From assembly GCA_937891465.1 (NCBI GenBank), contig CALAHF010000004.1:1-41276 (forward strand): 41,276 bases of DNA, in the 5' to 3' direction. Shown here piece after piece: positions 6,097 to 38,441 of the stretch. The translations under genes and the position numbers were made by a program. Under the pieces are notes generated by a model. It had not been told where the DNA came from and did not search any database. It saw only the letters and a list, made by a program, of their open reading frames with translations. This stretch comes from an uncultured Verrucomicrobiales bacterium. GTDB lineage: Bacteria > Verrucomicrobiota > Verrucomicrobiia > Verrucomicrobiales > DEV007. How positions within the stretch are numbered: position 1 is the first letter of the stretch; each line of letters opens with the position of its first letter.

Positions 6097-6190
6097 AATC
6101 CTATTGATTCGTCGAACGCACCCTGTTGGTTCGTGAAGCCGTTTCGATCGAACAGGGTTGGTTCATCGAACATACCCCGTTGGATCGTGG
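6097..6190. repeat. Palindromic repeat, locus B
   Basis: Composite of the repeat family. The full unit CGATCGAACAGGGT (about 6145-6158), loop TGGTTCATCGAACAT, then ACCCCGTTGGATCG is preceded by a half unit ACCCTGTTGGTTCGTG (6120-6135) and a decayed half (CCTATTGATTCG). About 28 bases around GTGAAGCCGTTTCGATCG are identical to locus C inside the hydantoinase gene. It lies in the 3' untranslated part of the selenoprotein candidate, between its stop and its terminator. Confidence 0.85.
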
Positions 6191-12073: not shown

Positions 12074-15073
12074 TTAGAAACGGTTTTCGCTGTTTTGGTC
12101 ACAAACAAGCGATCCGTTCTCTGCTACGATTGCCGTCCAGCCTGATTTTAAATAAAGGGTTGAGAATGGATCTTGGATGACAACCGGTCCTCCGATCGAT
12201 TCTCCGATTCCGAGATCAGCCCGATTTACGAACGCACCCTGTTGGTTCGGCGAACATACCCTATTGGATCGTGAAGCCGTTTCGATCGAACAGGGTTCGT
12301 TCGATGAATCAACCCTATTGGATCGTTCCGCAACAACGACAACGCGCAGGGTCACGATTTCGAGGGCTCGATTTTCAGCGGAGGAATAGCCGAAGATGGA
12401 TTCGTATTCGGAGCGATAGGCCGCTGGGATTTGTTGGGGATCGTCGATTTCGAGAGTCAGTGTGGCGTCCTGACCTTTGAGGCGAACTTCGGCAATCTGG
12501 CGTCGGATTTGCGGATTAAAATCAGCGGGGCAGCGGAGGTCACGACTCAGTTTTTCGGCTGCTTTTTCTTTGAGTTCTGAAAGAGTTTTTGGAATCGTGT
12601 CGGCGATTTTGTCATAGGACTCGAGGATTTGGCGCTCCGCAAAGCGCTCAACCTCGGCTTGATGGAGTCCATATGCAGAAAGCACACCGGCTTCGCGAGG
12701 AATGATGATCGTCGCCATTGCGAGTCGCTCAGCAATATCGCAGGCATGAAGGGGGCCGGCTCCGCCGAAAGCGAGCAAAGCGTATTCTGCAGGATCAGCG
12801 CCGTCTTGAATGGAAATGGTGCGAATCGCGTCGGCCATTTGTTCGGTCGCTATTTCGGCGAGGCCGAGGAGGAAATCGGTTGGAGAGCCATCGCTCAATT
12901 CAGCGAGGGCGGTTTCGGCAGCCGCGACATTTTCCGCTGAAATCGGAATTCCAAAATTGTCGGGATCGATCCGATTGAGGAGTAAATTGACATCGGTGAT
13001 GGTGAGGGGGCCGCCGCTGCCGTAACAGGCCGGGCCGGGATCGGCGCCTGCGGACTCGGGGCCGACGCGGATTTCTCCGGTGGCTGGATGGCGGTAACAA
13101 ATGGAGCCTCCACCTGCTGCGACGGTTTCGATTTTCAAAGATGGAGCTAGCAATGTAGCATCACCGACGCGCTGCTCGAACTGATATTGAAAGCCGCCGT
13201 TTTCGGCATCGTAGCGGGCAACGTCGGTGGAGGTGCCGCCCATATCGAAGGTGATGATTTTCTGAAATCCGAGATCGCGCGCGATGGCGGCAGCTCCGGC
13301 AACGCCTCCGGCAGGACCGGAGAGAAGTGAATCTTTCGGGTGAAACGTGACCGCAGGTTCAAGGCCGCCCGCGCTGGTCATGAGGAGGAGCGGATTTTCT
13401 GGAACGGCGGGAAGTTCGGGTTCTTCTTCGGGAGCGATCGGTACGAGGACGTTGTCCCGATCGATCAACCAGGTATCGAAGATTCGGAAAACGCCGCTGT
13501 CATCGATGCGCACGTTGTCCGGCGTGACGTCGACCATTTCGAGTCCGTCGTCTCGATAATAAACGATGCCGTCGCCGGTTTCGAAGCCGAGTTTGTCCAT
13601 TTCATCCATGATTTCATCCGGATGCGGCTTTCTGCCAGCCACGAACGGCTGAACGGTGAGAACAACGCCACGACCTTCACGATTTCTGGCAAAGCCGAGG
13701 AATTCGCAGGCGGTTTTCGGGGTAAAAGCGTTGAATTCGACCCAGCGATGAAGGTATTGCCATGGGGTTTTCCACGGTAAACCGTATTTGTCACCGATGG
13801 TGAGACGGACGATGAGGTGATCGGCTTCAAACAGAAAAGCGCGGTGTTCGTTGCCGACAGATATGTGACCGGCGGCGCGACCGAGTTGGTCGATGTCTTC
13901 AATTTCCCAAAAAAGCCCGTTTTTGCGAGACCAGTGCTCTAGCTCGTCTTCTTGTCGCTCGATTCGGACTGCGTTTGCTTCGCTGTCGACGGCGGTCCAA
14001 ACTCCTTCATCATCTCCTGGTGTGAGCTGTGATTGGGCGCGAATGACTGGAACTGTCGGGTAGCTTCTTCCGCCGATACTTTCTGTAGCGGCTTGGTGGA
14101 GGAAGTTGGGTAGAGATTCACATTTTGATGGTACAGGATTTTGGTTAAGATTTCCAGAGCTTTCTAGCGGCTTGATCGCGTTCCGGACTTTGTCGACAAG
14201 GGCCCGCATCACCGGAGTGAGGTAGGCGTTGATCACAGCGGTTTCAGCTCGAGGCAGGATTTTGATGAGCGGCGCGAGTTTTGAACTGAGCGAAACGTGA
14301 TTGAATCCGTATTTTAGCAGTTTTTCCCGAATGATCCGTTCGTGGGCGGGATTTGCGTGACTGTGGAGTAAAGCGACGGCGGCAACGCGAATACCGTGCG
14401 CAAGGAGATCGGCTGCGATTCTCTCCAAGCCGCTGAGGTCGGGCGCTTCGAGAACCGTTCCGTCTGCGGCGAGGCGTTCGTCGATTTCGATAACGGTTTC
14501 GTAAAGTGGCTCGGGTCGGATGTGGTTGAGCGCAAAGAGATCGGGGCGGCGTTGATCGCGGATGACGAGGAGGTCGCGAAAGCCGCGGGTTACGAAAAAT
14601 GCGACCGGGGCACCTTTTCGTTCGAGCAGTGCGTTGGTTCCGCGCGTTGTGGCGAGGCGGAAATCGAGCGGTGGAAAAGCGGAGGTGAGACCTGTTCCGG
14701 TGAGAAGTCGCGCCCCGAGAACGGGGGCTTCTTCGTTGGTTGTTAGCTCGAGGCTTTTGGGTGAGGTCTCACGCAGAGGCGCGGAGACGCAGAGGATTTT
14801 TGTGGTGTCGTTCCAAGCGATGACGGCGGTGTTTTCTTCGATGGTGAAACCGTTGAAAAAGTCGTCGGGAGCGTTCCAGTTTTCGGGGATTTCGAGGCGG
14901 AAGGTGGTGGCGTCGATCTGCTCGGCGACGGCGATGCGGAGTTTGCCTGATGAGAGGACTTTGACGAGTCGCGGTTCGGAATCGCCCGGTGCAAGCGCCC
15001 AACAATCCGAGAACGTCCCGCCGGTATCGACGCGAATTTTCCAAAGTTGGGATTGATTTTCGGGATTGCTCAC
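12074..15073 (-). CDS. Hydantoinase/5-oxoprolinase A-type protein with inserted kinase-fold domain
   Basis: A 999-residue protein; ordinary HyuA subunits have about 650-720. Residues 1-302 and 559-999 are HyuA: RVDTGGTFSD (phosphate 1 loop), ATTRGTNALLER, INAYLTPVMRAL, then MTSAGGLEP, LLSGPAGGVAGAA, TFDMGGTSTDVA, GPESAGADPGPACYG and LLAFGGAGPLHACDIAERL. The family uses ATP to open cyclic amides such as 5-oxoproline or hydantoins and normally works with a HyuB subunit, which is absent here. Residues about 303-558 are foreign: a kinase-fold domain (listed separately) sits in the loop just before MTSAGG. Residues about 917-949 are translated palindromic repeat (locus C). The frame is nevertheless intact, so the protein may be made, but activity is uncertain. 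Confidence 0.85.
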   Translation of the reverse strand: MSNPENQSQLWKIRVDTGGTFSDCWALAPGDSEPRLVKVLSSGKLRIAVAEQIDATTFRLEIPENWNAPDDFFNGFTIEENTAVIAWNDTTKILCVSAPLRETSPKSLELTTNEEAPVLGARLLTGTGLTSAFPPLDFRLATTRGTNALLERKGAPVAFFVTRGFRDLLVIRDQRRPDLFALNHIRPEPLYETVIEIDERLAADGTVLEAPDLSGLERIAADLLAHGIRVAAVALLHSHANPAHERIIREKLLKYGFNHVSLSSKLAPLIKILPRAETAVINAYLTPVMRALVDKVRNAIKPLESSGNLNQNPVPSKCESLPNFLHQAATESIGGRSYPTVPVIRAQSQLTPGDDEGVWTAVDSEANAVRIERQEDELEHWSRKNGLFWEIEDIDQLGRAAGHISVGNEHRAFLFEADHLIVRLTIGDKYGLPWKTPWQYLHRWVEFNAFTPKTACEFLGFARNREGRGVVLTVQPFVAGRKPHPDEIMDEMDKLGFETGDGIVYYRDDGLEMVDVTPDNVRIDDSGVFRIFDTWLIDRDNVLVPIAPEEEPELPAVPENPLLLMTSAGGLEPAVTFHPKDSLLSGPAGGVAGAAAIARDLGFQKIITFDMGGTSTDVARYDAENGGFQYQFEQRVGDATLLAPSLKIETVAAGGGSICYRHPATGEIRVGPESAGADPGPACYGSGGPLTITDVNLLLNRIDPDNFGIPISAENVAAAETALAELSDGSPTDFLLGLAEIATEQMADAIRTISIQDGADPAEYALLAFGGAGPLHACDIAERLAMATIIIPREAGVLSAYGLHQAEVERFAERQILESYDKIADTIPKTLSELKEKAAEKLSRDLRCPADFNPQIRRQIAEVRLKGQDATLTLEIDDPQQIPAAYRSEYESIFGYSSAENRALEIVTLRVVVVAERSNRVDSSNEPCSIETASRSNRVCSPNQQGAFVNRADLGIGESIGGPVVIQDPFSTLYLKSGWTAIVAENGSLVCDQNSENRF
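12227..12326. repeat. Palindromic repeat, locus C, inside a coding region
   Basis: Two units of the repeat family: ACCCTGTTGGTTCG, GCGAACAT, ACCCTATTGGATCGTG (12236-12273), then CGATCGAACAGGGTT, 13-base loop, AACCCTATTGGATCG (12283-12325). It is read through on the minus strand as residues about 917-949 of the hydantoinase-type protein, including RSNRVDSSNEPC and RSNRVCSPNQQ, with no frame change. It lies in a linker near the C-terminus, where HyuA proteins tolerate variation. Confidence 0.88.
13400..14167 (-). other. Inserted polyvalent-protein-kinase-like domain
   Basis: Encodes residues about 303-558 of the hydantoinase-type protein. The pattern is that of small kinase-fold domains found in phage and plasmid polyvalent proteins and as free proteins in verrucomicrobia: GNEHRAFLFEADHLIVRLT (nucleotide loop and strand 3, with Arg423 where Lys is usual), TPWQYLHRWVEFN, FLGFARNREG, LTVQPFVAG, then the catalytic VDVTPDNV (D515, N520 at the normal spacing) and IFDTW (D533, like the DFG Asp). 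A proline-rich linker (EEEPELPAVPENP) returns to HyuA. The domain boundaries are approximate. Confidence 0.65.
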
Positions 15074-22325: not shown

Positions 22326-22413
22326 AACAGGGAGGACGCCGTTTCTTGACGGATCAACCCTGTTGCTCCACGATCAGACCCTGTTGATTCATCGAACCAA
22401 CCCTGTTTGATCG
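22326..22413. repeat. Palindromic repeat, locus E
   Basis: Three half units in tandem, ATCAACCCTGTTGCTCCACG (22353-22372), ATCAGACCCTGTTGATTCATCG (22373-22394) and AACCAACCCTGTTTGATCG, preceded by a lone AACAGGG (22326-22332). It fills the gap between the DUF1501 gene and the sulfatase and reaches to seven bases before the sulfatase ATG, thus taking the place of a ribosome binding site. Confidence 0.75.
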
Positions 22414-35548: not shown

Positions 35549-35671
35549 ACGATCCAATAGGGTCGTAAGATGGCTTGCCAGTGGTCTGAGGATTCTCGCG
35601 ATGCAGAACCGGAAGACAGCCCTTATACAAACGTACAGGGTGCGTCCGACAAACAAACCCTGTTGCTTCGT
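35549..35671. repeat. Palindromic repeat, locus F
   Basis: Two parts: a half unit CGATCCAATAGGGTCG (35550-35565) and a full but diverged unit GTACAGGGTGCGTCCGAC, AAACAA, ACCCTGTTGCTTCGTAA (35633-35673). Between and around them I see no coding evidence. It lies between the oxidoreductase gene and the small lipoprotein gene. Confidence 0.65.
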
Positions 35672-37523: not shown

Positions 37524-38441
37524 ATGAAGGTGAATAATCGAATCAGCCGAATTTTTCGAACCAACAGGGTTGGCTCATCGAACATACCCTGTTGGTTCGT
37601 GGGGATTATTTTTGTGATGTGCTCAGGGTTTGTGGTGGGGCAGCAAACTTTGACCGATGGAAGCGACCCCGATATGTTGCGCGGATTGCAGGCTGTGAAG
37701 TTTGTGAAATTGCGTCCGCGACAGCAAACTATCCCTGCGAATTTTCTGAAGTTTTATCTGACTTTTCCCGAAAAAATGGAACGAGGTGTGGCTTTCGAGC
37801 ATCTTTCATTGTTGAAAGAGCTGAAACCTAGCAAGACTGAGCCGGTGCTCGAACCCTTTCGCGAAGTGGAGTTGTGGGACGAAACTGGAACGCGATTGAC
37901 GTTGTGGCTGCATCCGGGACGGCAGAAGCCAGGGGTGAATTTGAATGTGGAGTTTGGACCGATTTTGGAGTCGGGAAACATTTATCATCTCGTGGTTTCA
38001 AACGATTGGAAGACGGAGAAAGGCACTGAATTAGGAATTGATTCCGTTTTCTATCTGATGGCTGGTGCTTCAGATGTTCGCCAACCAAAACCGCAAAAGT
38101 GGGAACTGAAGGTGACTCCAGAACAAGTCGCAATTACGCCGTGTTGGAGCTGGAACCCACGAATTATCGACAAACTGGACCCAATGTCTTTTGTTAAACG
38201 AATCACGGTTCGAGACGCTGACGGGAAAGGCGTTCTGGTGATTGCTGACGGCGACCATTTGACAATTTCGCCTTTGAATAATAAAACTTTTTCGCCAGGA
38301 AAATATCAGCTCGTCGTGGATCCTAAACTGGAAGATTTAGCCGGAAACAGCGTGGGGCGGCCCTTCAATGTAGATCTGGAGAAGAATCCTGATTTTCAGG
38401 AGCGAACAGAACCGGTGATTTTGGATTTTGTAGTGAAGTAG
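37524..38441 (+). CDS. Exported protein with repeat-encoded N-terminus, unknown function
   Basis: A 305-residue protein. The ATG at 37524 gives MKVNNRISRIF, then RTNRVGSSNIPCWFV, which is translated palindromic repeat (locus G), and GIIFVMCSGFVVGQQ. The hydrophobic core of the signal peptide is thus partly made by the repeat (PCWFV). The only later ATG (37616) would leave a signal peptide too short to work. The mature part begins TLTDGSDPDMLRGLQ and has beta-sandwich character with an Ig-like segment near the end (NNKTFSPGKYQLVVDPKLEDLAGNSVG), a pattern typical of SbsA-type Ig-like domains. Function unknown. Confidence 0.75.
   Translation: MKVNNRISRIFRTNRVGSSNIPCWFVGIIFVMCSGFVVGQQTLTDGSDPDMLRGLQAVKFVKLRPRQQTIPANFLKFYLTFPEKMERGVAFEHLSLLKELKPSKTEPVLEPFREVELWDETGTRLTLWLHPGRQKPGVNLNVEFGPILESGNIYHLVVSNDWKTEKGTELGIDSVFYLMAGASDVRQPKPQKWELKVTPEQVAITPCWSWNPRIIDKLDPMSFVKRITVRDADGKGVLVIADGDHLTISPLNNKTFSPGKYQLVVDPKLEDLAGNSVGRPFNVDLEKNPDFQERTEPVILDFVVK
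37557..37599. repeat. Palindromic repeat, locus G (best copy)
   Basis: The most regular copy: perfect 14-base inverted arms CGAACCAACAGGGT (37557-37570) and ACCCTGTTGGTTCG (37586-37599) around a 15-base loop TGGCTCATCGAACAT. The loop is nearly identical to that at locus B (TGGTTCATCGAACAT). It is translated as part of the exported protein starting at 37524, in the same frame as locus C. Confidence 0.92.

Follow-up and report, generated by a model that had tools for sequence, protein, structure and literature searches.

A phage-type Kinase-PolyVal domain inside a verrucomicrobial HyuA enzyme suggests repeated hitchhiking in conserved genes

In an uncultured Verrucomicrobiales bacterium, the gene for HyuA, the alpha subunit of the ATP-dependent hydantoinase-oxoprolinase, carries a kinase-fold domain of the Kinase-PolyVal family between its two halves. 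The anatomy of the gene and comparison with its relatives, both read at the level of sequence, show an in-frame insertion into a HyuA loop, and a wider comparison shows that conserved proteins of Verrucomicrobiota that are unrelated to each other have captured domains of this family on at least five separate occasions. These findings suggest that Kinase-PolyVal repeatedly hitchhikes in genes that the cell cannot lose, an essential DNA ligase included. All positions below refer to the window, the whole stretch of 41,276 nucleotides that was analyzed, unless another contig or locus is named.

The HyuA gene is an open reading frame on the minus strand (12074-15073, 999 aa, GTG start) that is intact throughout, and in which Pfam recognizes Hydant_A_N (residues 107-255), Kinase-PolyVal (372-534) and Hydantoinase_A (559-809). 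Both HyuA domains are present in order with intact nucleotide-binding motifs, identifying the protein as a HyuA, and the motifs that flank the insert (Table 1) are intact by eye. The preliminary description of this DNA had reported that the HyuA motifs are split between residues 302 and 559 by ~255 residues in an unbroken frame; the Pfam domains indeed flank an insert of ~254 residues, between residues ~302 and 557, and the frame runs without interruption. The junctions between insert and HyuA read KP|LESS and PVPEN|PLLL. The five bases CCGCT occur near both junctions, too short a match to count as a target-site duplication. Codon usage is near native in the kinase part and atypical in the N-terminal linker, which comprises few codons, and was given little weight because an off-frame control scored almost as well. 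The same linker (residues 303-345) can be aligned with the N-terminal stretch of standalone proteins related to the domain. Elsewhere in the genome, searches found no second HyuA (at 1e-20), no second PF18762 domain and neither a further copy nor a donor of the insert DNA. One intact HyuB is encoded on contig C35 (L045, 4148-5695, G000), not adjacent to HyuA; in most relatives HyuA and HyuB are fused in one open reading frame of ~1240 aa.

A separate feature of the C-terminal part of HyuA is a short interspersed repeat, in frame there (peptide RSNRV...NEP), of which further copies lie near 6104-6189, 22383-22413, 35549-35563 and 37579-37601; the HyuA orthologue of genome G001 carries a form of it in the corresponding position. 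We take it to be comparable to coding repeats such as the Rickettsia palindromic elements.

Table 1 Features of the HyuA gene and its insert in the window.
Feature	Position	Strand	Remarks
HyuA N-terminal part	14168..15073	-	residues 1-302; PF05378; DTGGTFSD and TTRGTNALLERKG
In-frame insert	13406..14167	-	residues ~303-556 (~254 aa); missing from all readable relatives
N-terminal linker of insert	14039..14167	-	residues 303-345; low model confidence
Kinase-PolyVal domain	13472..13960	-	PF18762; residues 372-534
Glu409, family-specific Glu before strand 2	13847..13849	-	invariant in 56-sequence alignment A3
Arg423 at VAIK-Lys position	13805..13807	-	family mostly Lys, donor clade mostly Arg
Gln475, family-specific Gln	13649..13651	-	invariant in 56-sequence alignment A3
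Catalytic-loop motif D515-x4-N520 (DVTPDN)	13514..13531	-	from alignment
Asp533, DFG-like Asp	13475..13477	-	from alignment
C-terminal linker of insert	13406..13456	-	residues 540-556; acidic, proline-rich
HyuA C-terminal part	12074..13405	-	residues 557-999 and stop; PF01968; MTSAGG, SGPAGG, FDMGGTSTDV, FGGAGPLH
Short in-frame repeat in HyuA C-terminal part	12209..12331	-	residues 915-955; distinct from kinase insert

The insertion site is empty in relatives. A whole-protein search over 57 genomes (the window's own and 56 relatives) gave a HyuA match in 35, with the insert in the window's own genome only. The two halves of the window's HyuA share 42-65% identity with verrucomicrobial orthologues, and the matches of the relatives stop at about residue 300 and restart at 559-562. 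The site was readable, with both halves in one open reading frame, in 31 HyuA loci representing 28 genes (three were fetched twice), and in all 31, one of them from the same genus, 2-20 residues replace the 258 found here, in line with the earlier expectation of a short loop at this place. G001, the sole further genome compared from this genus, has YLTPVMESFIENIRAALPDQTPLHLMNSAGG at the insertion site, and on solved HyuA relatives the insertion point likewise falls in a short loop (7hk5, 224|238; 6yra, 233|243). The HyuA case, seen in one draft genome, appears to be unique. The hyuA gene of G001 (L044, 1509-3704) has an in-frame insertion of its own, ~30 residues long (LRGQSELASRPEHGRHGQRKASS), at a different site, before FDMGGTSTDV.

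The insert matches the Kinase-PolyVal profile PF18762 with an E-value of 1.4e-14 (54.8 bits) in the whole protein and of 1.1e-15 (58.4 bits) when searched alone (cut-off 27), covering positions 2-154 of 160. The consulted part of Iyer et al. 2017 (PMC5512222) describes this family as kinases belonging to polyvalent proteins of phages and plasmids and gives as its traits a Glu before strand 2, a Gln, the catalytic residues, a final Asp and the lack of a C-terminal subdomain. The family residues Glu409 and Gln475 are present in the insert, as are the elements from which a kinase had originally been proposed, namely D515-x4-N520 (within VDVTPDNV), the DFG-like Asp533 (in 'RIFD') and the segments 'PFVAG' and 'FLGF'. 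The ATP-anchoring Lys of the VAIK motif is replaced by Arg423. This Lys is kept in all copies inside LigA, PurL, NspC and OppD (see below), and Arg occupies the position in the majority of donor-clade proteins, among them the viral one; Arg423 was thus most likely inherited and not acquired through decay. An Arg at the ATP-binding Lys position makes phosphotransfer by the HyuA copy doubtful.

For structure prediction, an AlphaFold model of the full protein from its single sequence was discarded (mean pLDDT 37), and in a joint HyuA and kinase alignment intended for a full-length model the kinases were misaligned onto HyuA, so modelling was restricted to the insert alone, using the 56-sequence alignment. 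The resulting model has a kinase fold with a mean pLDDT of 80, exceeding 90 across much of the domain, and ends shortly past the DFG-like Asp, as a compact kinase without the C-terminal subdomain. Its best viral structural matches are a phage polyvalent protein (3.5e-12) and a PolyVal Ser/Thr/Tyr kinase (5.3e-8). Matches in the PDB are weaker and nearly all kinases, the best being PknB in Foldseek (E 6e-3) and Aurora A in VIA (Z 8.1), and the VIA matches include the compact kinases OspG and NleH (Z 6.0-6.8). A PDB sequence profile search with the kinase alignment returned weak matches only; in several of them the D-N-D segment aligned with PI4/PI3 kinases and AKT. The insert is thus predicted to be a compact autonomous kinase fold related to those of phages. 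Both the profile search and the absence of a long loop from every relative bear out the kinase-fold insertion proposed in the preliminary description.

As for the mobile or phage-type source also proposed there, the nearest kin of the insert are standalone proteins and a phage polyvalent protein. In a tree of 95 domains, the insert falls in a clade of ten (support 100/99) together with standalone proteins and one viral polyvalent protein, which also has an InPase domain; the branch of the insert is long and its exact position within the clade is unsure. Standalone proteins of ~235-260 aa from other families of the order share 25-33% identity with the insert over most of its length. The tree and the structural matches to viral proteins agree with such a source. 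Direct searches for relatives of the insert in genome contigs, phages and plasmids found none. Searches with the insert in PHROGs and against the 2023 PADLOC library likewise gave no match, so that it does not correspond to a known anti-phage defence system of that library.

Domains of the same family were found in frame between the halves of three other enzymes, with the domain required to lie between matches to both host halves. They occur at 47 loci in LigA, 14 in PurL and 10 distinct loci (of 13 counted) in NspC, all from Verrucomicrobiota; the LigA figure combines 36 loci from named records, for the most part MAGs of Akkermansiaceae and Luteolibacter, with 11 from an unnamed set, between which overlap is possible. 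The insertion splits the adenylation domain of LigA at a loop equivalent to 159|164 of the E. coli enzyme, follows the first AIRS_C domain of PurL, and in the carboxynorspermidine decarboxylase NspC corresponds to 257|264 of 9eaf. Furthermore, three OppD-type ABC ATPases of Verrucomicrobiota carry the domain at their C-terminus, and GlgB (one locus, L229, likewise from this phylum) is probably a further host, graded only as probable because the stretch ahead of the domain is short and lacks a match to solved GlgB. Although the preliminary description knew of no fusion like that in HyuA, and the HyuA case itself still looks singular, the family resides in other enzymes as well, so that what looked like a single odd enzyme is better read as part of a recurrent capture of this domain. 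A Kinase-PolyVal frame that continues into a GFO/IDH/MocA oxidoreductase (L139, 853-3405) was not counted, as it could reflect either a fusion or accidental read-through.

In the tree, the domains of each host form their own clade (LigA, PurL and NspC 100/99; OppD 98/94), and these clades are placed separately among the standalone and polyvalent forms. Since each host's domains are a separate clade, at least five captures must have taken place, that in HyuA included. In the LigA loci L170-L209, the C-terminal linkers of the domain resemble translated short tandem repeats (SSTIQNSKFKIP, SPIPNPQSPIPNPQ) that stand directly before LEVRGEIF; these junction repeats may record how the linker grew.

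Purifying selection acts on the domains captured by LigA, NspC and PurL. In twelve pairs, all from these three hosts, dN/dS of the kinase part was 0.04-0.45, much like the values for the host part. Among the copies compared, 11 of 12 in LigA, 8 of 8 in NspC and 9 of 9 in PurL retain the catalytic residues. LigA is essential in bacteria, and in the single-contig genomes G119, G117 and G251 the split LigA is the sole LigA found. A LigA without the domain (G259) shares 97% protein and ~90% DNA identity with the domain-bearing LigA of G119, indicating that the domain is dispensable for its host. Two LigA copies depart from the general pattern: that of L093 (G117) keeps its frame and has lost both catalytic Asp residues and the Asn, and that of L208 is truncated, with an apparent in-frame deletion of the N-lobe. 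Passengers can therefore decay.

We consider it probable that the insert is an autonomous, phage-related kinase-fold module that conserved enzymes carry as a passenger. In this species, anatomy and comparison show that a complete Kinase-PolyVal domain entered HyuA in frame, at the loop joining the two halves; its clade otherwise comprises a phage polyvalent protein and standalone proteins (~237 aa) from related Verrucomicrobiales. Predicted to fold on its own, the domain would be a passenger of HyuA, which has kept its motifs intact and presumably remains active. As the domain is kept by selection in other hosts, which can dispense with it, a function of its own is the likeliest reason for its retention. 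This function would probably serve in the kind of conflict known for this family, against phages or mobile elements of other types, and the host gene may provide steady expression and protection from loss. With Arg423, the HyuA copy might act by binding of ATP or protein rather than by phosphorylation; alternatively, it may be a young insertion without function.

The latter view, generalized to a neutral event in this genome, would have a kinase gene land in a permissive loop of an enzyme that is not essential, its frame kept by chance and not yet decayed. Occurrence in one genome only, the lack of an adjacent HyuB, the atypical codons of the short N-terminal linker and the other in-frame insertions in HyuA of the genus (the ~30 residues of G001 and the short repeats) all fit such an event. 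We nevertheless judge it unlikely, as ~254 codons remain open without a stop, every family hallmark except the Lys is kept, the Arg is common to the donor clade and was not gained after insertion, and purifying selection acts on the domain in three other hosts.

Another improbable reading is control in cis, by which the domain would sense ATP or phosphorylate its own host enzyme. The position of the HyuA insert between the halves of an ATP-using enzyme and the conservation of the domain, in frame, in LigA, NspC and PurL would agree with it, but the hosts have no common substrate, pathway or fold, the insertion sites differ and a near-identical LigA without the domain exists, so cis control fits poorly. 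Arg423 further weakens the phosphorylation model for the HyuA copy. The preliminary description had envisaged an enzyme with two activities or under regulation; an inserted polyvalent-type kinase-fold domain stands, while that consequence is not supported, given Arg423 and the uncertain phosphotransfer. Finally, an assembly artefact joining a kinase gene to HyuA is very improbable: the draft genome comprises 229 contigs and is known from assembly alone, but both junctions are in frame in one intact gene with HyuA alignment continuing on each side, the insert is present just once in the genome, and the architecture recurs in other genomes and hosts.

Domain insertions are usually presented as single events. 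One domain family inside at least four unrelated conserved enzymes of one phylum (LigA, PurL, NspC and HyuA), with others likely, provides a naturally occurring set of cases in which to study how entire domains get into genes in frame. It raises the questions of whether conflict proteins find shelter in essential genes and which cellular role phage-type kinases play, and it is a warning for annotation, as such open reading frames bear misleading single-function names. More tentatively, and less likely than not, the passenger explanation might extend to a protein-level hitchhiker of Verrucomicrobiota that settles repeatedly in permissive loops of enzymes the cell cannot spare, comparable to inteins but without splicing; hitchhiking Kinase-PolyVal domains perhaps form a defence reservoir. 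Residence of the family inside housekeeping enzymes is absent from the consulted part of PMC5512222, and a literature search, with subscription journals mostly outside its scope, found no report of recurrent Kinase-PolyVal capture. The family is known; its repeated residence in housekeeping enzymes appears to be new, although an earlier report may exist.

With Kinase-PolyVal as described in the consulted part of PMC5512222, the insert shares the sequence family, the compact fold, the Glu and Gln, the D-x4-N motif, the final Asp and the occurrence in Verrucomicrobia; it differs in having Arg for Lys and in lying inside a cellular metabolic enzyme, whereas that account places the family in large phage or prophage proteins and standalone proteins. 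Compared with typical HyuA proteins (PF05378 and PF01968; 7hk5, 6yra), both domains and their motifs are intact, but a ~254-residue insert occupies the loop between the halves, and hyuB lies on contig C35, unlike the mostly fused genes of relatives. Inteins are also in-frame inserts in conserved genes of unrelated hosts, some of them essential; an intein was rejected here, as the insert matched no Hint or nuclease family and lacks splice residues (a first Cys/Ser, and His-Asn before Cys/Ser/Thr), and in contrast to an intein it must remain in the mature protein. The Rickettsia palindromic elements and similar in-frame coding repeats likewise enter unrelated genes in frame and spare the host protein, but they are short repeats, whereas here a whole domain of ~200 residues was inserted and is under selection in several hosts.
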